Source: an uncultured Chloroflexota bacterium (GTDB lineage Bacteria > Chloroflexota > Anaerolineae > Aggregatilineales > Phototrophicaceae). From it: a stretch of DNA of 37,723 bases. The stretch lies in the NCBI GenBank assembly GCA_903864435.1, contig CAIPFY010000102.1:1-37723 (forward strand), written 5' to 3'. A program made the position numbers and the translations under genes. The stretch's first letter is position 1. Every line of letters begins with the position of its first letter. This document shows, in pieces, positions 20,651 through 33,751 of the stretch. The notes under the pieces are model-generated. The model was not told the DNA's origin. It did not search any database and worked only from the letters and a program-made list of their open reading frames with translations.

Positions 20651-22849
20651 TTGAGAACCGTCATCGCATTTAATGATCGCTGGTTGTATCGCGCTGAGGA
20701 TGTTTCTTTGTCCATACCGGACGACCAGTTTCTATCCGTCAACCTTCCACATACCAATATAGAACTACCATACCACAACTTCGACAATTCTGAATATCAA
20801 TTCATCTCAACCTATCGCAAACGTTTTCAACTACCGGAACCCCGTAAGGGACGCCGGGTATTTTTGGACTTTGCAGGTGCGATGATGGCCTGTGAAGTGT
20901 TCGTGAACGGGCGAAAAGTGGGCGAGAATGAGGGTGGATTTACCCCGTTTTCGTTCGATATTACGGATATGCTCAAGGATAACGCGGAAAATGTGGTTCA
21001 GGTACGGTTAGATTCGACAGAACGCCCGGATATTCCTCCGTATGGTTTTGTAGTGGACTATCTGACTTTCGGCGGGATTTACCGCGAGGTGAATCTGCGT
21101 TATGTGGAACCATGCCATATTGAGCGCGTGTTTGTTCGTTCGCAGCAGGTGTTGACTGAACCGCGTCTGGAAGCGGATGTGTTTGTGGTCAATCAGGGCG
21201 GCGTGCCGGATGCGCTGTCGGTCAGGGCGGTTCTGCTTGATCGCAGCGGGGCGCAGCTTGCCCGCGCAGAAGGTTCTGTGCTGGTGCAAGCGGGTGAAAC
21301 CAAAACGGTGACAGTGGATTTTGGTCGTTTGCCGGCAGCGCAATTGTGGTCGCTGAAGAATCCGGTTTTGTACCATGTTCAATTTACCCTGATGAACAGC
21401 GCGGGTGAATTGGATGCTGAGGGGACGCGGTTTGGATTCCGCGAGGCGGAATTCCGCAAAGACGGCGGTTTCTATCTGAATGGCGAACGGGTGAAACTGC
21501 GCGGATTGAACCGGCACCAGACCTATGCTTATATTGGCGCGGCGGCTCCGGCGCGGCTTCAGCGCAAAGATGCGGAAGTTGTGAAATATGAACTGGGCTG
21601 TAACATTGTGCGCACTTCGCATTATCCCCAGTCTACTCATTTTCTGGATCGGTGTGATGAAATCGGCCTGCTGGTATTCGAGGAGATTCCGGGCTGGCAG
21701 CATATTGGCGACACGGATTGGCAGGGTATCAGCTTGCGCGATGTGCAGGTGATGATTGAGCGCGATTGTAATCATCCCGCCATCATCATGTGGGGCGTGC
21801 GAATCAACGAGTCACAGGATAACGAGGCGTTCTACCGCGCCACGAACGCGCTGGCGCATCAACTCGATCCTAGCCGTCCGACGGGCGGCGTGCGCTATTT
21901 CCAGAACAGTCAGTTCCTCGAAGATGTGTTCACCTTCAACGACTTCTCTAATTCGGTGCAGGAGCCGCAAAATATTCCGCATCTTGTGACCGAGTTTAAC
22001 GGACACATGTATCCCACGAAGACATGGGATCAGGAAGAACGCTTGATTGAACACGCGCTCCGCCATGCCCGCATTCAAGATAAGCAGATGGGGATGGCGA
22101 ATGTGGTGGGCGCGATTGGTTGGTGCGCTTTCGACTACAACACCCACCGCGAATTTGGTTCCGGGGATCGCATTTGTTATCACGGCGTAATGGATATGTT
22201 CCGGTTGCCGAAGTACGCCGCGTATTTCTACGAGAGCCAGATTGACCCCGAAGATAAGATCGTGCTGCGGGCGGCTACGGTCTGGTCTATGGGAGATCGC
22301 AGCGGCGGCGGAAATGACCCGCTGGTGATTTTCTCGAATTGCGAGGAAGTCGAACTCTATATCGGGGATAACCTGTTCGGGCGTTTCAAGCCGGATCGCG
22401 TTCAGTTCCCGAACCTGAAGTATGCCCCGTTCCAGATCGCGGGTATCCAGTTGTGGATGACGTGGGGGCAGAAGGTGACAGATTTGCGGGTGGTGGGCTT
22501 CATCAATGGCGCGGCGGTGGCGGAACAGCGCATTTCGGCGCATGGCATTCCGCATGCGCTGGTGCTGGAACCGGATGATGTGGAGCTTCAGGCCGACGGC
22601 GCGGATATGACGCGGTTGGTGTTCCGAATTGTGGATTGCTACGGGAATCGGCTGCCGTATGCCATTCAGCCCGTGCAGTTTGAGATTGATGGCCCGGCTG
22701 ATCTGGTCGGAGAAAACCCGTTTGCGCTGGTGGGCGGACAGGCGGCGATGTACGTGCGGGCGCAGAGCGAACCCGGCGCGGTGACGATTCGGGCGACGAC
22801 AGCGCGGCTTGATCCGGTTTCGGTGACGATTCACACCATCAAAACATGA
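20651..22849 (+). CDS. Glycoside hydrolase family 2 protein (beta-galactosidase/beta-glucuronidase-like)
   Basis: The 732-residue protein has the GH2 order: a jelly-roll sugar-binding domain (about 1-165), an immunoglobulin-like domain (about 166-265), a TIM barrel (about 266-560) and extra beta domains at the C-terminus. The barrel contains RTSHYPQSTHFLDRCDEIGL and FEEIPGW. The acid/base is Glu387 in WGVRINES and the likely nucleophile is Glu448 in LVTEFNG. No signal peptide is present, so it should cleave imported oligosaccharides in the cytoplasm. The start is a TTG at 20651 with AAGGG at 20638-20642, 8 bases upstream; the protein then begins like other GH2 enzymes (TVIAFNDRW). The exact glycosidic linkage is unknown. 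It precedes the glycerol operon by 78 bases. Confidence 0.9.
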   Translation: MRTVIAFNDRWLYRAEDVSLSIPDDQFLSVNLPHTNIELPYHNFDNSEYQFISTYRKRFQLPEPRKGRRVFLDFAGAMMACEVFVNGRKVGENEGGFTPFSFDITDMLKDNAENVVQVRLDSTERPDIPPYGFVVDYLTFGGIYREVNLRYVEPCHIERVFVRSQQVLTEPRLEADVFVVNQGGVPDALSVRAVLLDRSGAQLARAEGSVLVQAGETKTVTVDFGRLPAAQLWSLKNPVLYHVQFTLMNSAGELDAEGTRFGFREAEFRKDGGFYLNGERVKLRGLNRHQTYAYIGAAAPARLQRKDAEVVKYELGCNIVRTSHYPQSTHFLDRCDEIGLLVFEEIPGWQHIGDTDWQGISLRDVQVMIERDCNHPAIIMWGVRINESQDNEAFYRATNALAHQLDPSRPTGGVRYFQNSQFLEDVFTFNDFSNSVQEPQNIPHLVTEFNGHMYPTKTWDQEERLIEHALRHARIQDKQMGMANVVGAIGWCAFDYNTHREFGSGDRICYHGVMDMFRLPKYAAYFYESQIDPEDKIVLRAATVWSMGDRSGGGNDPLVIFSNCEEVELYIGDNLFGRFKPDRVQFPNLKYAPFQIAGIQLWMTWGQKVTDLRVVGFINGAAVAEQRISAHGIPHALVLEPDDVELQADGADMTRLVFRIVDCYGNRLPYAIQPVQFEIDGPADLVGENPFALVGGQAAMYVRAQSEPGAVTIRATTARLDPVSVTIHTIKT

Positions 22850-22858
22850 CCGATTTCC

Positions 22859-22890
22859 CGCTGGAGACTGATTCCGATCGGTTTCCAGCG
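22859..22890. promoter_or_regulatory. Dyad overlapping the glpK promoter region
   Basis: CGCTGGA (22859-22865) and TCCAGCG (22884-22890) are exact inverted repeats, with a small palindrome CCGATCGG between them. The dyad lies between the GH2 stop and the glpK -10 box and covers the -35 position. It could be an operator, or a weak transcript end for GH2 (there is no T run). Confidence 0.35.
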
Positions 22891-22892
22891 AC

Positions 22893-22898
22893 TATAAT
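22893..22898 (+). promoter_or_regulatory. -10 box of the glpK operon
   Basis: A perfect TATAAT sits 29 bases upstream of the glpK ATG. The -35 position falls inside the neighbouring dyad and is not consensus. Confidence 0.45.
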
Positions 22899-22927
22899 GA
22901 AAGATAGAAAGGTCTCAGGGGAACCTT

Positions 22928-24424
22928 ATGTCTCGATATATCCTTGCACTCGATCAAGGCACTACTTCTTGCCGTGCGATTCTGTTTAATCGGCAAGGGC
23001 ACATCGTCGGCGTTGCACAGCAGGAATTTCCGCAGATTTACCCGAAACCGGGATGGGTAGAACATGACCCGGAGGCTATCTGGAGCGCACAGATTGCAGT
23101 GGCGCGTTCGGTGCTGGCGGCGAATCAGGTCAGCGCCGGGGACATTGACTCGATTGGCATTACCAACCAGCGGGAAACCACTATGGTTTGGGATCGGGAC
23201 ACTGGCAAGCCGTTGATGAATGCGATTGTGTGGCAAGACCGGCGCACCGCTGGCCTGTGTGACACGCTGAAGCGCGAAGGTTTTGACCGGGTGATCCGCG
23301 AGAAAACGGGGCTGGTGACGGATGCCTATTTTTCGGGGACGAAAGTGGCATGGATACTGGATAATGTCCCCGGCGCACGGGCGCTGGCAGAGGCTGGCAA
23401 ATTGGCGTTCGGCACGGTGGACAGCTTCCTGATCTGGCGGCTGACCGGCGGACGGTTGCATATCACGGATGTGAGCAATGCCAGCCGGACGCTGTTGTAT
23501 GACATTCACGAAGGTGCGTGGTCAGAGCCGATTTTGCAGCGGTTGAACATCCCCGCCTCGATGCTGCCGCAGGTGGTTCCGAGCAGCAGCGTGTATGGCG
23601 AGACGGTGGCGGAGTGGTTCGGCGTGCCGATCCGGTTGGCGGGTATCGCTGGCGATCAGCAGGCGGCGACCTTCGGGCAAGCCTGTTATCAGCCGGGGAT
23701 GGCGAAGAACACGTATGGAACGGGTTGTTTCATGCTGATGAACACCGGCAGCGCAGCCCGCGAGTCTGCTCATCAGATGCTATCTACTATCGGCTGGCGC
23801 GTAGGCGATGAACCGGTGCAGTACATGCTAGAAGGTAGCGTGTTCATCGGCGGGGCGGTGGTGCAATGGCTGCGCGATGAGATGAAGATGATCGGCAGCG
23901 CGGCGGAAACTGAGGAAATTGCCCTGAGCCTGAAGGATAACGGCGGCGTGTATGTTGTGCCGGCATTCGTGGGGTTGGCTGCGCCGTACTGGGATTCGTA
24001 TGCGCGTGGGACGATTGTCGGGCTGACACGCGGTAGCGGACGCGCTCAGATCGTGCGGGCATCTCTTGAAGCGATTGCCTATCAGACGCGGGATGTGCTT
24101 CAGTCTATGCAGGCGGATTCGGGATTAGAACTGCAAGCCCTGCGTGTGGATGGCGGCGCGGTGCAGAATAATTTCCTCATGCAGTTTCAGGCGGATATTT
24201 TAGGGGTTCCGGTGGAACGCCCGGCGGTGACGGAGACGACGGCGCTGGGCGCGGCGTATCTGGCGGGGCTGGCGACGGGCTTCTGGTCGTCACAGGCGGA
24301 AATCGAGGCGCAGTGGGTGTTAGAGAAGCGGTTCGAGCCGCAGATGTCCCGTGATGAGCGAGACTCGTTGTACGCGGGTTGGCAGCGGGCAGTGGCACGG
24401 TCGAGGGAATGGGAACAGGCATGA
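22928..24424 (+). CDS. glpK: Glycerol kinase
   Basis: A 498-residue FGGY-family kinase that phosphorylates glycerol to sn-glycerol 3-phosphate with [19 protein letters not shown] (near the N-terminus) is the phosphate-1 motif. [42 protein letters not shown] and [20 protein letters not shown] are classic GlpK segments, and the length matches (E. coli GlpK about 500). AGGGGA at 22917-22922 gives a good ribosome site. It is the first gene of glpK - pfkB-like - glpD, overlapping the next gene by ATGA. No glpF or other glycerol facilitator is in the window, so glycerol may enter by diffusion or a distant gene. Confidence 0.97.
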
Positions 24425-25332
24425 ACCGGCCACTCCTTGTGGCGGGGCTGACCAATCTGGAAACCACGCTGCAAATTGACTCGTTCCCACTGGGCTACAG
24501 CCCGGTTCATTACCCGTTTTTTGGCGTGCAGAGTGCCGTTTCGGGCGTGGGCTACAACGTGGCAAAGGCGCTGACCGTGCTGGGACAAGCGGTGCGGTTT
24601 GCATCGTTGATCGGGCAAGATGCGGTAAACGGCGTGGTACTGGCGGCCTTGAAGGATAGCGGGATAACGTCGGAGTATGTGCTGAACACGCTTGCACAAA
24701 CCCCGCAGTCGGTGATTTTGTATGACCGGAATGGCAACCGGCAGGTGCATGTTGATCTGAAGGACATTCAGACGCAGGCGTATCCGCAGACGGCGTTTGA
24801 GCAGGCGTTGGCGGGGTGCGGGCTGGCTGTGTTGTGTAATGTGAATTTCACACGCGCTTTTCTGCCGTTGGCGCGGCGCATGGCGATTCCGATAGCGACG
24901 GATGTTCATGCGATTTCGTCTCTGGATGATCCGTATAATGCCGACTATATGGCGGCGGCATCCATTTTGTTCATGAGCCACGAAATGCTTCCCTGTTCGC
25001 CTGAAGAATGGGTTCGGGAGGTGATGCACCGTTATGGCACGGAAATTGTGGTCGTGGGGTTAGGGGCAGAGGGGGCGCTGCTGGCGGTCAAACGAGATGA
25101 TTTTGTGGGGCGTATCCCCGCTGTGCGCCCGCGTGTGGTTGTGAACACCATTGGCGCGGGCGACGCTTTATTTTCAGCTTTTGTCCATACTTATGTGCGG
25201 ACAACTGATCCGTATCTGGCAATCCGCAAGGCTGTGGTGTTCGCAGGGTATAAGATTGGTGCGAAGGGCGCAGCCGAAGGGTTTTTGCGAGATACGGAAT
25301 TAGATGATCTAGCGGCCGGTATGACCGCATGA
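24421..25332 (+). CDS. PfkB (ribokinase) family carbohydrate kinase
   Basis: The 303-residue protein has the ribokinase-fold signatures: an N-terminal [10 protein letters not shown] start, a glycine segment [14 protein letters not shown] in place of the usual GGxxxN motif, and [17 protein letters not shown] at the C-terminus, with the catalytic base Asp in GAGD. It would transfer phosphate from ATP to a hydroxymethyl group of a sugar or related compound; the substrate is not evident. The ATG at 24421 overlaps the glpK stop by four bases and glpD follows 20 bases later, so it is firmly inside the glycerol operon. This suggests a substrate whose breakdown also yields glycerol or triose phosphate; that is inference. 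Confidence 0.85.
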
Positions 25333-25352
25333 ATTTGTGAAGGAGATTGAAC

Positions 25353-27062
25353 ATGTCAAGACGTGAAGTATGGGAGTCTCTGCGGCAAAACCCGGATGTT
25401 TCAGTGTTGATCGTCGGCGCGGGCATTAACGGGATTGGTACGTTCCGTGATCTGGCGCTGCAAGGTGTGGATGTGCTGCTGGTGGATAAAGGCGATTTTT
25501 CCAGCGGGGCGAGCGCGGCATCCTCTCACATGCTGCACGGCGGCATTCGCTACCTCGAAAATGGTGAGTTCCGGCTGGTGCGGGAGGCGCTGACCGAACG
25601 CAACCGGCTGATTCAAAATGCGGCGCACTATGCCCGCCCGCTGCCCACGACGATCCCGATTTTTAGCTGGGTTTCGGGATTCTTGAATGCGCCGCTGAAG
25701 TTCCTGAACCTGCGCGATAAGCCTTCGGAACGCGGCGCGGCGGTCATCAAGATCGGGTTGATTTTCTACGATTGGTTCACACGCGGTCAGCAAACACTGC
25801 CGGTACATCAGTTCTTCTCCAAAGCCGAGTCGTTGAAACTGCGCCCGGCTATGAACCCGGATATTGTCTGCACAGCCACCTACTATGATGGCGCGTTACC
25901 GCAACCGGAACGCCTGAGCGTGGAACTGATTCTGGATGGTGAGGCGGATTACAGCGGCGCACGGGCGCTGAACTATGTGGCGCTTCAGGGTGCGTCTGGC
26001 GATGGGGTTATCTTGCGTGATGAAGTGACGGGCGAGACGATCACCGTGAAGCCGAAGGTGCTGGTGAACGCGGCTGGCCCCTGGATTGATGTGGCGAATC
26101 AGGCGATGGGGCGAAAAACGCACTTCATCGGCGGCACGAAGGGGTCGCATCTGGTGGTAGATCATCCTGATCTGTACAAGGCGGCTGCCGACAGCGAAAT
26201 CTTCTTCGAGAATAAGGATGGTCGTATCTGCCTGATTTTCCCGCTGCTGGATAAGGTGATTCTGGGGACGACAGACATCCGTGTGGATGATCCCGAAAAG
26301 GTGGAATGCACCGAGGATGAGGTGGACTACATGCTGAATCTCGTGCGGCATGTGTTCCCGGACATTCACATTGATCGTTCGCACATCGTTTTTCGCTTCT
26401 GCGGCGTGCGGCCTTTGCCTTCGAGCGATGCCTCGCGCACAGGGGCGATCAGCCGCGATCATAGCATTCGCGTGATCGAGCCGGGGTCGGGGCTATCGTT
26501 TCCCGTGTTGTCGCTGGTGGGCGGGAAGTGGACGACCTATCGCGCATTTGCCGAGCAAACGGCGGATGCGGTGCTGTCGCGGCTGAACCGTACCCGCAAG
26601 GCGGATACGAAGTCGGTGGGAATCGGCGGCGGCAAGGGCTTCCCGAAAGAATCGGCGGCGCAAAAGGCGTGGGTGACGGAGACGGCTTCTAAAACGGGCG
26701 TGGCTGCTGCCCGTGTGGAAACGCTGTTCCGGCGCTACGGCACAGGCGCGGCGGTGGTGGCGGCATTCTGCGCGAAGGAAGCAGATGCGCCATTGCGTTC
26801 AAACCCGGATTACAGCCGTCGTGAGGTCGCCTATCTTGTCCATCAGGAGAAGATTGTGCATCTTGAGGATTTGGTTCTGCGGCGCTCGCTGCTGGGGATG
26901 CTGGGCTTCGTCACAGGCGATTTGCTGCAAGAGACTGCGGCAATCCTCGGTGCTGAACTGGGCTGGTCGGCAGAGCGCGTGCAATCCGAAGTGACGGATT
27001 GCGCGAATTTGCTGCACAAGCGGCACGGCGTTCCGGCGGAGCGCCTCGCCATCCGTTCGTAA
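25353..27062 (+). CDS. glpD: Aerobic glycerol-3-phosphate dehydrogenase (FAD)
   Basis: A 569-residue flavoprotein that oxidises glycerol 3-phosphate to dihydroxyacetone phosphate and passes electrons to quinones at the membrane. The dinucleotide fold is VLIVGAGINGIGTFRDLA (GAGINGIG at residues 22-29), followed by DFSSGASAASSHMLHGGIRYLE, the GlpD/GlpA family signature. GTKGSHLVV and GTTDIRVDDP are further family segments. The C-terminal GlpD domain (about 430-569) is present. The ATG at 25353 has AAGGAG at 25340-25345; an in-frame TTG at 25347 is too close to it. It is the last gene of the glycerol operon, followed by a strong hairpin. Confidence 0.96.
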   Translation: MSRREVWESLRQNPDVSVLIVGAGINGIGTFRDLALQGVDVLLVDKGDFSSGASAASSHMLHGGIRYLENGEFRLVREALTERNRLIQNAAHYARPLPTTIPIFSWVSGFLNAPLKFLNLRDKPSERGAAVIKIGLIFYDWFTRGQQTLPVHQFFSKAESLKLRPAMNPDIVCTATYYDGALPQPERLSVELILDGEADYSGARALNYVALQGASGDGVILRDEVTGETITVKPKVLVNAAGPWIDVANQAMGRKTHFIGGTKGSHLVVDHPDLYKAAADSEIFFENKDGRICLIFPLLDKVILGTTDIRVDDPEKVECTEDEVDYMLNLVRHVFPDIHIDRSHIVFRFCGVRPLPSSDASRTGAISRDHSIRVIEPGSGLSFPVLSLVGGKWTTYRAFAEQTADAVLSRLNRTRKADTKSVGIGGGKGFPKESAAQKAWVTETASKTGVAAARVETLFRRYGTGAAVVAAFCAKEADAPLRSNPDYSRREVAYLVHQEKIVHLEDLVLRRSLLGMLGFVTGDLLQETAAILGAELGWSAERVQSEVTDCANLLHKRHGVPAERLAIRS

Positions 27063-27280: not shown

Positions 27281-27309
27281 ATTGACTGTTTTTCACGTAC
27301 AGGTTATTG

Positions 27310-28356
27310 ATGCCAACCTTACAGGATGTGGCACATCGTGCAGGTGTTTCCACTGCAACAGTGTCCAAAGTCCTCTCCAACACACCCTATTTCACCGACC
27401 AGACCCGCGCCAAAGTGATGCAGGCGGTGGAAGAACTGGGCTACGTTCCTCATCTGGCAGCGCGTGCTTTGTCGAAGGGGAAAACGCGCATTATCGCCGT
27501 TGTATTCCCTTACCTGTACGACACACTTTTCAGTGATCCGTTGGTGCTGCGGATACTGGAAGGGATTGAGAGCGAGACCAGCCGGCAAGGGTATAACATC
27601 CTGTTGAGTACCCCTCGTTTGAATGCACGCGGCCCCGATTCGCATTACAAGCAGCTCATTCAAAGCGGCTACATTGACGGCGTGATCGCGCTGGATAACG
27701 TACCGTTCGCTTCCGTGCTGGACCCGGTACGCAAACGGGGTATTCCTGCCGTAGCAATTGGCTATTACGGGACTGATTTTCGGGTGGTTAGCGATGATGT
27801 CTCTGGCGGATTTCAGCTGATGACTCATGTGCTGGGATTAGGCCATCGGCGCGTGGGCATTATCACCGTCCCGTTCAACATTCATTATTCCATTCAGCAC
27901 CGCATTGCCGGTTTACGGGCAGGCGCTGAAGCAGTCGGTGTGGATTTCGATGCATTCCCGCAAGTGGACGGTGATTTTTCCACCGATAGCGGGGAAGCGG
28001 GTGCGGCGAAACTGCTGGATGCGCATCCAGATTTGACCGCGATTATCAGTTTGAATGATCGTATGGCAATGGGGGCGATACTGGCCGTTCGTAATCGTGG
28101 ACGCGAAGTGCCGCGTGATGTCACCATCGTGGGGTACGACGATATTCCGATTGCCGCCACGATTTCGCCTCCGCTGACCACGATTGACCAACAGGCGCCC
28201 GAACTGGGACGTTCCGCGATGCGGATGCTTCTGGATGTTTTTGGTAATCATTCCCCTGAGTTGGTGAAAATGCCCACTCGTCTCATAGTTAGGCAGTCTT
28301 CGGCAGCGCCCGCTCGCTGGCGGGAGGAGGTGGCGACCCATCACGATTCAAGGTGA
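27310..28356 (+). CDS. LacI-family transcriptional regulator
   Basis: The 348-residue regulator has an N-terminal helix-turn-helix (TLQDVAHRAGVSTATVSKVL, residues 3-22), a hinge (HLAARALSKGKT) and a periplasmic-binding-protein-like effector domain (from IIAVVFPYLYD), ending with the usual TTIDQQAPELGRSAMRML segment. It should repress carbohydrate genes and release DNA when a sugar binds. The ATG at 27310 is preferred over the TTG at 27307, with AGG at 27301-27303. Two matching palindromes upstream suggest autoregulation. The sugar ABC importer begins 52 bases downstream, with no terminator between, so it is the likely target. Confidence 0.93.
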   Translation: MPTLQDVAHRAGVSTATVSKVLSNTPYFTDQTRAKVMQAVEELGYVPHLAARALSKGKTRIIAVVFPYLYDTLFSDPLVLRILEGIESETSRQGYNILLSTPRLNARGPDSHYKQLIQSGYIDGVIALDNVPFASVLDPVRKRGIPAVAIGYYGTDFRVVSDDVSGGFQLMTHVLGLGHRRVGIITVPFNIHYSIQHRIAGLRAGAEAVGVDFDAFPQVDGDFSTDSGEAGAAKLLDAHPDLTAIISLNDRMAMGAILAVRNRGREVPRDVTIVGYDDIPIAATISPPLTTIDQQAPELGRSAMRMLLDVFGNHSPELVKMPTRLIVRQSSAAPARWREEVATHHDSR

Positions 28357-28408
28357 GTCCGTTGCGGTTTGTAATATTTTACCAAGTGATAGTCTGAGGA
28401 GTGTTGAA

Positions 28409-29731
28409 ATGTCTAAGCGTAGTATGTTGGTTGTATTGCTGGCTGTTTTCTTGTTGTCGCTTTCTGTTCCCCTTATTTCTAACGCGCAAGAGGATGTAGC
28501 TCTGCGTTGGCGTACCCGTCCCGACAATCAGGCTGAAATTGACCTGTATCAGTCGATCAGCGATTCGGTTGATGCGGGATGGGATGGGGTGTCGTTGGCC
28601 TATGAACCGGGCGGCACGGAAGGTGGCGGCTATTCGGCTACGCTTCTGACGGAAGTGGCGGCTGGTACGGCTCCTGATGTGTTCTGGATTCCGGGCACCG
28701 ACATCGCCACCTTTGCTTCGGCAGGCGCGATTCTGAATCTGTCCGATCTGGCTACTGCCGCAAGTTTCGATATGAGCGTGTTCTATCCGCAGCAGGTTGC
28801 TCAGTTGACCTTCAACCCGGAAACCAAGACCAACGAAGGCGCACTGTGGGGCATGCCGCGTGATGCTTCGGCGATGGTTCTCTACTACAACGCCGATCTG
28901 TTTGATGAAGCAGGTGTGGATTATCCTGAGAAGCAGATGGCTGATGGTAAGTGGGACTGGGAAGGCTTCAAGGCCACCGTGGAAGCCATTTCCGGCCTTT
29001 CGACTGCCGATAATCAGGTTTACGGTTTCGGTATGAATAGCTGGTGGGCGAACTGGTTGCTGTGGATTAACGCCGCCTACGACAGTGGCTACAACAACTA
29101 TTTCACCGCTGACCAGTCCGCCTGTGGATTGAATGGCACGCCGACCACCGAAGCGATGTCGTTCATGCAGGAACTGTATGTGAACAACTGGGCCGTTCCG
29201 TTTGGTCAGGACAGCGAGCCGCCGTTTGTGTCTGGTAATGTGGGTATGTTCATGAATGGTCGTTGGGCGACCCCGAACAATATCAAGAGCCTCGGCTTCA
29301 ACTGGAATGCGGCTGAAGTTCCTGCTGCACCGAATGGTGCGCGTAGCAACTGGCTGTTCTGGGGCGCGTATGTGGTGAATGCCAATACCGCACACCCGCA
29401 GGAAGCCTTTGATCTCCTGTCCCGTTTGACCAGTGTGGAAGTGCAGTCGCAGGTGACGGCGCTGGGCGCGAATATCCCCAGCCGCGCAGGTGAAGATGCG
29501 GTGAACGCTTTCCTCGGCAGCCTGACCGATGTCAAGCCTGATCTGAATAATCAGGCGTTCGTCAATGGGCTGGCTTATGCGGTTGCCGAAGCGCCGCTGT
29601 GGACTGCGAACTTTGGCGATATTGACAGCGTGGTCAATGCTGAAGTGGGTAAGGTGATGAGCGGCGATGCGACGCCCGAAGACTTTACCGCAACGGTTTG
29701 TGACGCAATGGCTCCCTTCTTCCAGAAGTAA
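28409..29731 (+). CDS. Sugar ABC transporter substrate-binding protein
   Basis: A 440-residue extracellular solute-binding protein (family 1). The signal peptide runs to about Ala26 (hydrophobic core LVVLLAVFLLSLSV, then SNA), followed by QEDVAL. There is no lipobox Cys, so it looks freely secreted or periplasmic rather than a lipoprotein. The mature part has the binding-protein pattern: GTAPDVFWIPGTDIATFA, ALWGMPRDASAMVLYYNADLF and GNVGMFMNGRW. It would deliver an oligosaccharide or sugar derivative to the permeases encoded next. GAGGAG at 28396-28401 is a strong ribosome site. A stem-loop after the gene could keep its expression above that of the permeases. The ligand is unknown. Confidence 0.93.
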   Translation: MSKRSMLVVLLAVFLLSLSVPLISNAQEDVALRWRTRPDNQAEIDLYQSISDSVDAGWDGVSLAYEPGGTEGGGYSATLLTEVAAGTAPDVFWIPGTDIATFASAGAILNLSDLATAASFDMSVFYPQQVAQLTFNPETKTNEGALWGMPRDASAMVLYYNADLFDEAGVDYPEKQMADGKWDWEGFKATVEAISGLSTADNQVYGFGMNSWWANWLLWINAAYDSGYNNYFTADQSACGLNGTPTTEAMSFMQELYVNNWAVPFGQDSEPPFVSGNVGMFMNGRWATPNNIKSLGFNWNAAEVPAAPNGARSNWLFWGAYVVNANTAHPQEAFDLLSRLTSVEVQSQVTALGANIPSRAGEDAVNAFLGSLTDVKPDLNNQAFVNGLAYAVAEAPLWTANFGDIDSVVNAEVGKVMSGDATPEDFTATVCDAMAPFFQK

Positions 29732-29749
29732 GGCGAGTTCGTCTTCAAA

Positions 29750-29774
29750 GGGGAGCCAGCAAGTCTGGCTCTCC
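29750..29774 (+). promoter_or_regulatory. Intercistronic stem-loop between binding protein and permease genes
   Basis: GGGGAGCCAG (29750-29759) pairs with CTGGCTCTCC (29765-29774) with one wobble and a 5-base loop. The T run after it is weak (TGCTTTTA). Such loops after binding-protein genes commonly stabilise the upstream mRNA or cause partial termination. Confidence 0.55.
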
Positions 29775-29828
29775 TGCTTTTAGCGGAGTACAGTCCCTTG
29801 TGCTTCGATTAGTGAGCGGAGGTCTGCA

Positions 29829-31520
29829 ATGGCTGTAACGTCTCGGTCAATGGGTGCGTCACAACCGGAGTCTGGAAAGGCTCTGCCGGCTTTATACGTG
29901 ATTATGGTTTGGCAGGTGCTGGTTGGGGGCGGGTGTTTGTATGTTGCCAGCCAGATTCTGCAAATAGAGCGTATTTTTAATCTTGGAAATTTTGTCCAGA
30001 TATTCCTCGCAGGGGTGTTTACACTGATTGCTGCTGCGAGTTTCTTTTCGGCCTATCGCCTCTATCAAATCAATGGGACAGGGCGCTTGCTGGCGATGGG
30101 GATTGATTTTACGGGCATGGTACTGGCACTGCTGTACCTCGGTCACATCACTGGATTGTATCTGGGATTGGACACGCTGGCTGATGGGTTGTATCGCAGC
30201 CTGAGCTGGTTGTGGGGTATCGCGCTGGGGTACATGGTTTTATGGTTGAGTTGGCGTTTCCCAGAGGGTAATCTCATTCGGAAGTATGGAGGCTATGCCG
30301 GTCTTGGGGTGATGGCGGCCTGTGTGGTCATCATCTTGTTGACCTCCGGCTTGCTATTGAACGGCATTAGCGCACTGGTGACAAATATCCTGCGGGTAGA
30401 TTCGATCATTGTGATCGTTGTCGCCGTGATCTTTGGCATGGCATCGGCCTATCTGCTGCGTAAGGGCGATGTGTTTGGCGAAACCACCTCTCAGCGCGAC
30501 ACATGGCAGGGGTGGCTGTTTTTGATGCCCAATTTTGTGAGCTTTGTGCTGTTCTTTGCCGGCCCCTTGCTGCTGTCGTTCTATTTGAGTTTTACGGATT
30601 ACAACCCTGCGCAACAGAATCCTGCGCAATTCGTTGGGCTTTCCAATTACACTCAAATGTTGAGCTTGAGCATTGGGACGCTGCAAAATTCGGAACAACG
30701 TGGCGCAGAGGTTATCGCTGAAGGACATGCGGAACTGACCCGTTTCACGATTGGCGACAGTACGATTGTCATCGGTGCGCGTGATACGCTGTTCTGGTAC
30801 AGCCTATTCAACACATTCAACTACTGTTTGTTTTTGCTGGTGTTCAGCATTCCACCCGCGTTGGGATTGGCGATGCTGTTGAATTCAAAAATGCCGGGTA
30901 TGAAGTTCTTCCGGGCAGTCTTTTTTATCCCTTCCATCGCGGCTGTGGTGGGTGTGGCCTTGATCTGGCAGTGGTTGTATGACCCGACCATCGGGTATAT
31001 CAACTATGCCATTCTGCAAGTGGTCAACTTCATCAATGGTCTGTTTGGAAGCCAGATTGCCGACCCTGCGGTTAAGTGGCTGACCGATGAGCGCATCCTG
31101 ATGCTCTCGGTCGTCATTATGGCGGCATGGCAGGTTATCGGCTTCAACTCCGTGATTTTCCTAGCCGGTTTGCAAGGGGTACCCCGTGAACTGGTTGAAG
31201 CGGCTACTGTGGATGGCGCTAACCGTTGGACACGCTTCCGTAAGATCATCCTGCCGCTGCTTGGGCCGACCACGTTTTTTGTGACCATTACCACGTTGAT
31301 CGCAGGGCTTCAGGCTTTTGCCGAACCGTTTTCGTTGATCGGCGAGAATAATCCATCAACGGCAAAGCTGACGAGTGTGTACTATTTGTATAATCTCGGG
31401 TTCAGCAATTTTCGGATGGGATATGCGTCGGCGGTGGCGTGGGTGGTGTTCATCGCCATTTTTATCGTGACAATCCTGCAATTTCGCTTTTCGTCCAGCA
31501 ATCGCGCTTACAGTGATTAG
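29829..31520 (+). CDS. Sugar ABC transporter permease, MalF-like, with extra N-terminal membrane domain
   Basis: The 563-residue protein has a normal MalF-type permease core from about residue 225 (WQGWLFLMPNFVSFVLFFAGP) to the end. The EAA motif is EAATVDGANRWTRFRKIILP (residues 458-477), which couples to the ATPase. Before it lie about 215 residues with roughly six more hydrophobic helices (about 24-44, 55-77, 87-112, 122-141, 155-180, 190-211) that ordinary sugar permeases lack. An extended loop (about 283-318) precedes the helix that starts near residue 320. The ATG at 29829 follows GGAGG (29818-29822). With the next gene it forms the membrane channel. The function of the N-terminal block is unknown. 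Confidence 0.88.
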   Translation: MAVTSRSMGASQPESGKALPALYVIMVWQVLVGGGCLYVASQILQIERIFNLGNFVQIFLAGVFTLIAAASFFSAYRLYQINGTGRLLAMGIDFTGMVLALLYLGHITGLYLGLDTLADGLYRSLSWLWGIALGYMVLWLSWRFPEGNLIRKYGGYAGLGVMAACVVIILLTSGLLLNGISALVTNILRVDSIIVIVVAVIFGMASAYLLRKGDVFGETTSQRDTWQGWLFLMPNFVSFVLFFAGPLLLSFYLSFTDYNPAQQNPAQFVGLSNYTQMLSLSIGTLQNSEQRGAEVIAEGHAELTRFTIGDSTIVIGARDTLFWYSLFNTFNYCLFLLVFSIPPALGLAMLLNSKMPGMKFFRAVFFIPSIAAVVGVALIWQWLYDPTIGYINYAILQVVNFINGLFGSQIADPAVKWLTDERILMLSVVIMAAWQVIGFNSVIFLAGLQGVPRELVEAATVDGANRWTRFRKIILPLLGPTTFFVTITTLIAGLQAFAEPFSLIGENNPSTAKLTSVYYLYNLGFSNFRMGYASAVAWVVFIAIFIVTILQFRFSSSNRAYSD

Positions 31521-31532
31521 GGAGGTTTGCAC

Positions 31533-32804
31533 ATGGCAGCCAATGCCCAAACTGCGGCTCGCGCCCGAACCGCTGCACAGCTCGATCGGTTGTTGAAGAT
31601 TCGGACGTGGGTGATCCGAATCCTTGTTTACTTTTTGCTGTCCTTTGTTGCGTTTTTGATGTTGTTTCCCTTTCTGTACATGTTCTTTACGTCGTTGAAG
31701 AATACGCAAGATGTATTTCATGCGCCGCCTCGTCTGATGCCTTATAGCGCAACAACGATGTCCATTAATGGCGAAGATGTGATGGTTTACAACTTTGTTC
31801 TTGAGGGTCAAGAACACAAAATGGTTGTTGACCAAGAGACAGGTAATGTTCCATTCGGGTTCTTCACAACGGCTGAGGAGATAAATGCTGCCGATCCACA
31901 ATCCACAGCGAATGTGCGTCAGGTCAAGCTGGCTGATGTGGTGGATACTGGACGCGAGGAAACGGTGGGTGGCGAGAGCTTCCCGGTTTACAGTGTAAGC
32001 GTAGATGGTCAGTCACAAGATTTGTTGATGGCTTATCGGCGCGGATTGAAGCGTTTTGTGGATGTGAATGATCCCAGCGTGGAAGTGTTTGCCGTCGAAC
32101 GCACCGCGCCTGTAGATGAGTATGTGGACCCGCAATTTGGCAACTACAATTCGGTGCTGCAACTCAAGAACCTTGATCGCGCCCTTATCAACACCTCGGT
32201 TGTGACGCTTCTGGTCACTGTGGGGCAGGTAACGACTTCACTGTTGGGCGGGTATGCGTTTTCTCGAATTCAGTTCCGGGGACGTGATAAGTTGTTCCTT
32301 GTCTATCTAGGAACAATCATGATCCCGTTTGTGGTGCTTATCATCCCGTTGTACCAATTGATGGTTATTATCGGCTGGCAGGGGAAAATCGCCGCGCTGG
32401 TCTTGCCTTGGATTTTTACTGCCTACGGTACATTTCTGATGCGGCAGTTTTTTATCACCATTCCGAAGGAGCTAGAAGAAGCCGCACTTCTGGATGGGTT
32501 GGGGCGGTTCGGGATTTTGTGGCGCATCTTTGTGCCTTTGAGTGGCCCCGCGATTGCGACACAGGCCATCATCACGTTTCTATATGCGTGGAACAGCTTT
32601 TTGTGGCCGCTGGTCATTATCGGTGATGCCAATACGGTCAATCATGTGGTGACGCTTTCTTTGCGACAGCTTAAGACGGCGGCTGCTGCCGAACCGAATC
32701 TCGTCCTGACGGGTGCAGCAGTGGCGATTTTGCCGCCGCTGGTCTTGTTCCTGCTGGCACAGCGGTATTTTGTGGAGGGGATTGCCAACACGGGCTTGAA
32801 ATAG
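31533..32804 (+). CDS. Sugar ABC transporter permease, MalG-like, with extracytoplasmic insert
   Basis: The 423-residue protein is about 140 residues longer than typical MalG-type permeases. Helix 1 (about 28-52) is followed by the usual FFTSLKN and PPRLMP; then about 130 residues (71-200) are inserted before the normal NYNSVLQLKNLDRALINTSVV segment. The insert is hydrophilic and strand-rich and lies on the outer side of the membrane by family topology. It shows two similar pieces (around 79-109 and 146-177). The EAA loop is EEAALLDGLGRFGILWRIFV. GGGAGG at 31520-31525 supports the ATG at 31533; the gene starts 12 bases after the MalF-like gene. A terminator follows and no ATPase gene is present. 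Confidence 0.9.
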   Translation: MAANAQTAARARTAAQLDRLLKIRTWVIRILVYFLLSFVAFLMLFPFLYMFFTSLKNTQDVFHAPPRLMPYSATTMSINGEDVMVYNFVLEGQEHKMVVDQETGNVPFGFFTTAEEINAADPQSTANVRQVKLADVVDTGREETVGGESFPVYSVSVDGQSQDLLMAYRRGLKRFVDVNDPSVEVFAVERTAPVDEYVDPQFGNYNSVLQLKNLDRALINTSVVTLLVTVGQVTTSLLGGYAFSRIQFRGRDKLFLVYLGTIMIPFVVLIIPLYQLMVIIGWQGKIAALVLPWIFTAYGTFLMRQFFITIPKELEEAALLDGLGRFGILWRIFVPLSGPAIATQAIITFLYAWNSFLWPLVIIGDANTVNHVVTLSLRQLKTAAAAEPNLVLTGAAVAILPPLVLFLLAQRYFVEGIANTGLK

Positions 32805-32828
32805 GTCGTCGGGTGTTTGGGTGTTCTA

Positions 32829-32855
32829 GGGCGAGTCATTGCACTCGCCCTTTTT
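32829..32855 (+). terminator. Rho-independent terminator of the sugar importer operon
   Basis: GGGCGAGT (32829-32836) pairs with ACTCGCCC (32843-32850) around a 6-base loop, followed by TTTTT. Confidence 0.92.
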
Positions 32856-32907
32856 GTTTTTCGTTAGGATATTCGTCATGTTTGGCTACAGGCACTTCGC
32901 ACGGCCT

Positions 32908-32913
32908 TATAAT
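32908..32913 (+). promoter_or_regulatory. -10 box of the SUMF1-domain lipoprotein gene
   Basis: A perfect TATAAT lies 31 bases before the ATG, with GCTACA (3 of 6) at the -35 position, 17 bases upstream. Confidence 0.5.
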
Positions 32914-32944
32914 AGATTATTGCTGTGCTGAACAGGTGGTCAGG

Positions 32945-33751
32945 ATGATAAGAGTTTTTGTGCTGGTTGCGCTGGTTGTATTGAGTGGGTGCGCTCTTGG
33001 TGAAACCGCCGGGAACAGCGCCCCATCTGGTTTTCCGGGGAATCCGGTTGTCCGCAACCGCGATTGGACGCCTTCGCTTAAGGAGTTTAGCGGCGTCTCA
33101 ATGGTATTTGTGCCAGTGGGGTGCTTCAGAATGGGGAGCGAAATTGGCGATCCTGACGAAAGTCCGGTGAGTGTTTCTTGTATCGAGCAGCCTTTCTGGA
33201 TAGATCGAACAGAAGTGACCAACGCGCAATTTTTGCAGTTTAACGGCGTGGCGGAACAGCCGTCCGCGTGGTCGGATTTAAATCGCCCGCGTGTGAATGT
33301 GCGCTGGACGGAGGCGCGTGACTTCTGTAAAGCGCGTGATGCGCGATTGCCAACAGAGTTGGAGTGGGAATGGGCGGCACGAGGCCCCGATAGCCGCGAG
33401 TATCCTTGGGGGGATACGTGGCAACCGGACGCGCTGGTGCAGCCGGAAAATGCGAACGCGCAGACTGCGCCGGTGGGTAGCCGACCCGGTGGTGCATCGT
33501 GGGTAGGGGCGCTGGATATGGCGGGGAATGTGTGGGAATGGACAAGTACCCTTTACGATGGATTTATTTATCCGTATTTTCATGATGACGGACGCGAGAC
33601 CCCGAATAATGTGACCTCTCAGCGCGTCATCCGGGGCGGATCGTGGTACGACATTACCGATCCGTTTTATGCACGGGCTGCGAACCGGGGACGGATGGGT
33701 GCGGACATGCAGAATTTCAACGTGGGGTTGCGCTGTGCCCGCGATTTCTAG
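32945..33751 (+). CDS. SUMF1/FGE-sulfatase-domain lipoprotein
   Basis: This 268-residue protein starts with a lipoprotein signal (VFVLVALVVLSGCAL; Cys16 is the lipidated residue). The rest is one SUMF1-type domain: MVFVPVGCFRMGSE, FWIDRTEVTNAQFLQF, RLPTELEWEWAARGPDSREY, DMAGNVWEWTS and RVIRGGSWYD near the end. In formylglycine-generating enzymes the C-terminal segment carries two copper-binding Cys; here that segment (residues 240-268) has only one Cys, near the very end (GLRCARDF), so the enzyme activity is unlikely and a binding or structural role is more plausible. AGGTGG at 32934-32939 supports the ATG at 32945. tyrS follows, with its promoter just after this stop. Confidence 0.85.
   Translation: MIRVFVLVALVVLSGCALGETAGNSAPSGFPGNPVVRNRDWTPSLKEFSGVSMVFVPVGCFRMGSEIGDPDESPVSVSCIEQPFWIDRTEVTNAQFLQFNGVAEQPSAWSDLNRPRVNVRWTEARDFCKARDARLPTELEWEWAARGPDSREYPWGDTWQPDALVQPENANAQTAPVGSRPGGASWVGALDMAGNVWEWTSTLYDGFIYPYFHDDGRETPNNVTSQRVIRGGSWYDITDPFYARAANRGRMGADMQNFNVGLRCARDF

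Follow-up and report, generated by a model that had tools for sequence, protein, structure and literature searches.

A predicted beta domain with two module copies in the TM1-TM2 loop of a MalG-like permease from an uncultured Chloroflexota bacterium

Introduction

What could a hydrophilic insert of about 130 residues do in a MalG-like permease, at a place where such proteins have, as a rule, a short loop? This question is raised by a transporter locus of an uncultured Chloroflexota bacterium. The window, that is, the whole stretch of DNA that was analysed (37,723 nucleotides), encodes a substrate-binding protein (SBP) followed by two permeases, named here A (MalF-like) and B (MalG-like). A sequence-only reading had described the insert in permease B, proposed that it contains a duplicated beta module and lies outside the cell, and likened it to the P2 domain of MalF, placed on the other subunit. 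MalF P2 is the textbook permease ectodomain working with a binding protein, and it has an Ig-like fold and is not known to contain tandem modules. The features of the locus are collected in Table 1.

Table 1. Features of the transporter locus and of permease B (window coordinates).
Feature	Position	Strand	Remark
GH2 beta-galactosidase-like glycosidase	20651..22849	+	Below NCBIfam cut-offs; 5euv, a solved beta-galactosidase, matched at 600 bits
Glycerol kinase GlpK	22928..24424	+	Over curated equivalog cut-off
PfkB-type sugar kinase	24379..25332	+	Weak matches below NCBIfam cut-offs
Glycerol-3-phosphate dehydrogenase-like (GlpD)	25347..27062	+	Below NCBIfam cut-offs
LacI-family regulator	27307..28356	+	
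Substrate-binding protein	28409..29731	+	Signal peptide without lipobox cysteine
Permease A, MalF-like	29829..31520	+	563 aa, long extra N-terminal part
Permease A, core TM1-TM2 loop	30648..30815	+	56 residues as counted
Permease B, MalG-like CUT1 permease	31533..32804	+	423 aa; domain, structure and sequence matches
PPRLMP, entry hinge of insert	31725..31742	+	P65, P66 and P70 invariant (68 sequences)
Insert, residues 70-201	31740..32135	+	Between TM1 and TM2, inferred extracytoplasmic
Module 1, residues 75-122	31755..31898	+	Module profile E 1.3e-8; own sequence in profile
Module 2, residues 136-184	31938..32084	+	Module profile E 1.1e-16; own sequence in profile
NY, residues 204-205, insert end	32142..32147	+	N204 invariant (68 sequences)
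EAA motif EEAALLDG, residues 315-322	32475..32498	+	Cytoplasmic coupling helix

Identity of the permease and location of the insert

By its domain, its EAA motif, its MalG/SugB fold, and an operon shared with an SBP and a MalF-like partner, permease B is a MalG-like permease of a CUT1 importer. The Pfam model BPD_transp_1 matched residues 246-416 only (62.2 bits, cut-off 26.4), the NCBIfam model UgpE residues 214-419 only, and five solved chains (two SugB, AlgM2, and two MalG) were aligned only from residue 198-223 on. The membrane part of the permease B model was superimposable on 8hps_B (VIA Z 16.6, 243 aligned residues, rmsd 4.0) and on 2r6g_G (Z 15.7, 251 aligned residues, rmsd 4.5), with the insert left over in both; Z values up to 13 for helical bundles can reflect a common arrangement, and here the sequence agrees with the fold match. 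The insert, with the limits first read for it, is real and extra to the permease domain. Taken alone, it had no Pfam match up to E 1, and no Pfam or NCBIfam model matched its module. The length of the region was 125-145 residues in all of the 75 sequences measured (the window and 74 loci; a further six loci escaped the parser at first and were included afterwards).

The insert is acidic and hydrophilic (9 K/R versus 23 D/E) and residues 1-27 of the permease are basic (5 K/R versus 1 D/E). In the AlphaFold2 model, three further membrane helices run between the insert and the EAA motif at residue 315, the motif which, in the part of PMC3150292 that concerns its role, binds the NBD. These two opposite charges, and where the EAA motif stands in the chain, place the insert most likely on the outer side of the membrane, in line with the earlier proposal.

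Duplication within the insert

In a single-sequence alignment the two pieces of the insert scored 40, a value reached by 3 of 2000 shuffles, and among 68 homologues the same test gave a shuffle p ≤ 0.01 in 34 while the other 34 failed it. This modest result by itself would leave room for a chance resemblance or a gene-calling artefact. Comparison of profiles gave a much clearer answer: module 1 (residues 72-120) and module 2 (residues 136-200) were aligned with a probability of 97.4, an E value of 1e-11, and a score of 50.9, and none of 100 column shuffles of module 2 reached the real score (maximum 16.7). For control stretches of permease B overlapping neither module, the highest scores were 13.8 (with module 1) and 9.9 (with module 2), and one sharing a few residues with module 1 scored 21.9 with it. 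This profile test, together with the existence of homologues carrying the insert and a confident predicted fold, refutes chance or artefact, to which we give practically no credit. The insert holds two homologous copies of a module of about 45 residues, so that the internal repeat was borne out and the two pieces turned out to be alike. In alignments inspected by eye, the repeat unit is longer than first noted, and the pattern G-x-F-x-D-P-x-x-P closes each module.

Predicted fold and conserved residues

AlphaFold2 modelling of the full chain with 68 sequences gave a mean pLDDT of 85 and a pTM of 0.70; for residues 71-200 the block means were 96-98. The insert modelled alone (mean pLDDT 96.2, pTM 0.84) was mainly beta, with one strand of 18 residues, and the duplicated module is accordingly predicted to be a beta structure in both contexts, as had been suggested.

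Foldseek comparison of the insert model with the PDB gave no match at E ≤ 0.001, a result which does not show a new fold. Matches of the double Tudor type were found with a best E of 0.36, and they were also at the top in VIA-align, where 7dm4, 4uc4, and 2qqr had Z of 5.4, 4.8, and 4.0; no Z reached 8, and values under 8 may mean only a common arrangement. Sequence identity in these alignments was 7-15%. The YdhK protein was also among the VIA-align matches listed. Double Tudor domains consist of two SH3-like units, and the likeness to their hybrid or interdigitated forms, a weak one, weakly suggests that the predicted insert is made of two SH3-like units sharing strands. Double Tudor proteins are chromatin readers, unlike an insert in a transporter.

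Among the columns conserved at 70% or more, most were Gly, Pro, or likely core residues; the charged ones were R67, D177, R190, and E196, and the aromatic ones were Y86, F175, and Y205 only. These data bear on the idea that the insert binds a sugar or a cell-surface glycan, and so samples or concentrates the substrate. A site probably outside the cell, on a predicted sugar importer, would be suitable for such binding, and a GH2 glycosidase gene is present in the same stretch; we consider it improbable, however, taking into account how few aromatic columns are conserved and that no carbohydrate-binding module was prominent among the fold matches listed, this last being weak evidence.

Distribution and copy number

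A scan of a genome collection confirmed 134 candidates, of which the best 80 were kept. All of these 80 carried the insert, under a ranking by likeness to the window that favours insert carriers (each matched almost all of a 200-residue query containing the insert). Judging by record titles, they belong mostly to Anaerolineae and actinobacteria. One contig of 87,354 bases, JAHHHY010000007.1 (L069), is titled Pleurocapsa minor, a cyanobacterium; it holds an operon of the Anaerolineae type and its name looks wrong. Two significant module matches were found in 80 of these best 80 relatives, from which the module profile itself was built.

As a single sequence, the insert had a match in 22 of 61 genomes (the window's own and those of relatives), and as an alignment in 48 of the same 61, in 33 of 400 Chloroflexota genomes, and in 8 of the 296 genomes from the phylum to which an Acidimicrobiia locus belongs, that locus's own genome included; the alignment counts comprise single-module and partial matches. 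The module profile, run over 5132 ORFs from 178 loci with a domain E < 0.01, detected 123 ORFs with two modules and 26 with one; it was derived from two-module permeases, and many of the 178 loci overlap. Among the single-module ORFs were permeases from Chloroflexota and actinobacteria that belong to another lineage, and a permease of a Rhizobium plasmid (L161). A tblastn search of plasmids matched 154 records, mostly of Rhizobium; 3 of the 154 cover at least 80% of the query. Two plasmid matches were read, that of L161 and one in a Pannonibacter plasmid permease (L162), which has one similar piece below the module cut.

Thirteen further stretches were also analysed; an ORF passing the filter was present in 8 and modules in 7 of these 8. 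Three tandem matches were observed in L213 (7.2, 32.8, and 21.6 bits) and three also in each of L210, L211, and L212, where the middle match is weaker (3.4, 10.0, and 2.5 bits, respectively). L214 has two significant modules and a third by eye, and L217 and L221 have one. L174 was rejected as a multi-copy array; its last module alone was significant. Across permeases of at least three phyla, the module occurs once, twice, and apparently three times.

From the membrane core, with the insert left out, a tree of 93 rows was built by a quick method (37 of the 81 window-and-scan rows plus all other rows), with SH-aLRT as the only support, no inference of the root, and the labels of L162, L139, L171, L174, and L026 set by eye; it has weak deep forks and many long branches. 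A group of 50 rows (SH-aLRT 98) joined 48 two-module and 2 one-module permeases, a second (SH-aLRT 96) 18 one-module rows and L174, and a third (SH-aLRT 99) L161 and L162. Since the two-module permeases fall in one group, the ectodomain follows a transporter lineage, which is expected of a partner-specific contact. The two one-module rows nested in the two-module group, L172 and L173, suggest the loss of one copy. In the pairs L172/L176 and L173/L175, the match to the insert profile covers its positions 1-35 and 92-141, as if an in-frame deletion had fused half of each module.

In the window's own genome the module was found in one permease only: at the cut used, it was present in none of 22 other MalG-like cores (among L022-L045), whose loops are of tens of residues by eye. 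The exception is L026 (G000:C271:3786-4838), which bears a different insert of 351 residues at the same place. The statement that the MalG loop is normally short therefore holds as a rule and fails as a universal one. The L026 insert was considered as a longer array of the same module and rejected as such; it looks repeat-like by eye, with 2 of 200 shuffles reaching its score, and the module profile gave no match in it. Beyond the window's genome, this insert had a match in 1 of 248 genomes of the class.

Gene neighbourhood

Among the best 80 of the 134 loci, a relative of permease A was directly upstream of permease B in 74, and a relative of the window's SBP (44-67% identical) stood at most 6 kb upstream in 68. 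An ORF of the LacI family was found anywhere in the locus in 51 of these 80, and relatives of other genes of the window were less frequent: GH2 in 12, FGGY kinase in 13 (close, with 72-77% identity, in only 4 of the 13), PfkB in 4, and GlpD in 5. Several contigs end early, and contig ends explain some of the misses. The part of permease A ahead of its core, hydrophobic by eye, measured 218-278 residues in 66 of 74 stop-to-stop ORFs; outside the permease domain, this protein had one sub-threshold Pfam match of the GtrA type (E 0.0074).

The genes for GH2, GlpK, PfkB, and GlpD precede the transporter genes in the window. All four have relatives in L059, L063, and L064; in L055 three of them do, PfkB being absent, and in L066, at the start of a contig, PfkB and GlpD do. 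It is possible that the region 20651-27062 is a utilisation locus of the galactosylglycerol type, and galactosylglycerol or another glycerol-linked galactoside would be a reasonable guess as the candidate substrate; nothing on galactosylglycerol uptake in Anaerolineae was among the matches listed from an open-licence library of papers. Inspection by eye of the ORFs flanking the transporter genes (27307-33751) showed no ATPase gene, and a shared MalK/MsmX-like ATPase encoded elsewhere is therefore likely.

The SBPs of 68 insert-bearing systems had a lipobox in 37 cases and none in 28 (25 by script and L055, L058, and L069 read from the output), and 3 were cut at a contig end. In the window's genome, a lipobox was present in 1 of the 27 SBP_bac_8 ORFs read out of 29 matches, the window's own included, and these loci (L179-L206) contrast with the 37 lipobox SBPs among the relatives of this system. 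A role of the insert as a general substitute for the lipid anchor was rejected: insert-bearing systems use SBPs with and without a lipobox, and a single permease of the window's genome has the module.

Divergence and putative role of the insert

The anatomy described above is solid, and it is on the function that the readings differ. Over 61 loci, the mean pairwise distance was 0.65 in the insert; in the core it was 0.32, in the SBP 0.39, and in permease A 0.43, which makes the insert about twice as divergent as the membrane core. Partial distance correlations of the insert, given without a significance test, were 0.16 (SBP), 0.29 (permease A), and 0.13 (its own core).

This twofold divergence, and a copy number going from one to apparently three, are what would be observed in a passive spacer or a wall-facing decoration under weak constraint, kept by descent. 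The steady length of the insert, its invariant hinges, its confident predicted fold, and the presence of two modules throughout the best 80 loci, in a search that favours such loci, speak against a spacer, to which we assign a low probability.

The main rival to docking of the SBP is a brace for assembly or gating, in which the insert would pack against permease A, on its enlarged outer loop, to steady the A-B heterodimer without binding the SBP. The TM1-TM2 loop of permease A, at the equivalent place, has 51-83 residues in 69 of 74 aligned sequences (the window included) and 17 in the other 5, and it is with permease A that the partial correlation of the insert is highest. The short loop of 17 residues occurs, however, in the two-module systems L081, L087, L090, L108, and L124, with which an obligate pairing of the insert and a long permease A loop was discarded, and the brace seems to us unlikely.

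Docking or holding of the partner SBP by the insert is the explanation that we favour, by a little over an even chance. The TM1-TM2 loop of the MalG-like CUT1 subunit, most likely extracytoplasmic, carries a two-copy array of the small module, and both copies would fold together into a single rigid beta domain, which may be a pair of interdigitated SH3/Tudor-like barrels. Next to the channel mouth, where the PPRLxP and NY hinges would support it, this domain would contact one lobe of the partner SBP, which may in this manner be held or oriented during the cycle, a P2-like job performed by the other subunit with a different fold. Docking is favoured because the company of one type of SBP and permease A is steady and because the same loop meets the SBP in DppB and, as reported, MalE in MalG P1; it is weakened by the divergence of the insert, its low correlation with the SBP, the structural look of most conserved columns, and the 22 MalG-like paralogs free of the module.

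More tentatively, and with less probability than docking itself, an array of one to three or more modules might tune how the channel reaches and holds its SBP, as an expandable docking tower opposite MalF P2. The series of one, two, and apparently three copies offers a natural test of whether ectodomains set SBP affinity and transport rate. The module is in addition a domain family without a Pfam or NCBIfam match, of use in annotating permeases of Chloroflexota and other bacteria.

Comparison with known systems

The insert was not described in any title or abstract opening among the matches listed from an open-licence library of papers, and the module, its duplication, and its varying copy number appear to be undescribed within the literature and the Pfam and NCBIfam models searched. 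A MalG ectodomain as such is not new, because one from Thermotogales has been in print since 2008: in the portion of PMC2246101 that deals with MalG1 and MalG2, a hydrophilic region of about 500 residues lies between TM1 and TM2, and its role is given there as unknown. These proteins resemble permease B in having a large hydrophilic TM1-TM2 region on the MalG subunit; their insert is of about 500 residues versus 132, and the two are likened by that description, not by sequence.

Like the insert, which is most likely on the outer side, MalF P2 (about 180 residues, PMC2246101) is an extracytoplasmic domain built into the corresponding core loop of a permease subunit of CUT1 type; it differs in being on MalF and not on the MalG/UgpE-like subunit. 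The proposed likeness to P2 on the other subunit stands for the position and is not supported beyond it: no P2-like fold and no MalF row appeared among the matches listed for the insert model (50 of Foldseek and 34 of VIA). Contact of MalE with both MalF P2 and MalG P1 was reported in a study listed among the references of PMC3150292.

The scoop motif of DppB is also a TM1-TM2 extracytoplasmic element of a type I importer, and it does engage its SBP: as stated in the part of PMC12136057 devoted to it, the motif occupies the DppA cleft, and when it is removed about a quarter of the ATPase activity is left. It is unlike the insert in having about 30 residues and two short helices, and in belonging to a peptide importer (PMC12136057). 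The closest relatives are the single-module MalG-like permeases of Chloroflexota, Actinomycetota, and rhizobial plasmids, which have the same module in the same loop as permease B, in one copy versus two, and most of them are in separate lineages of the core tree.
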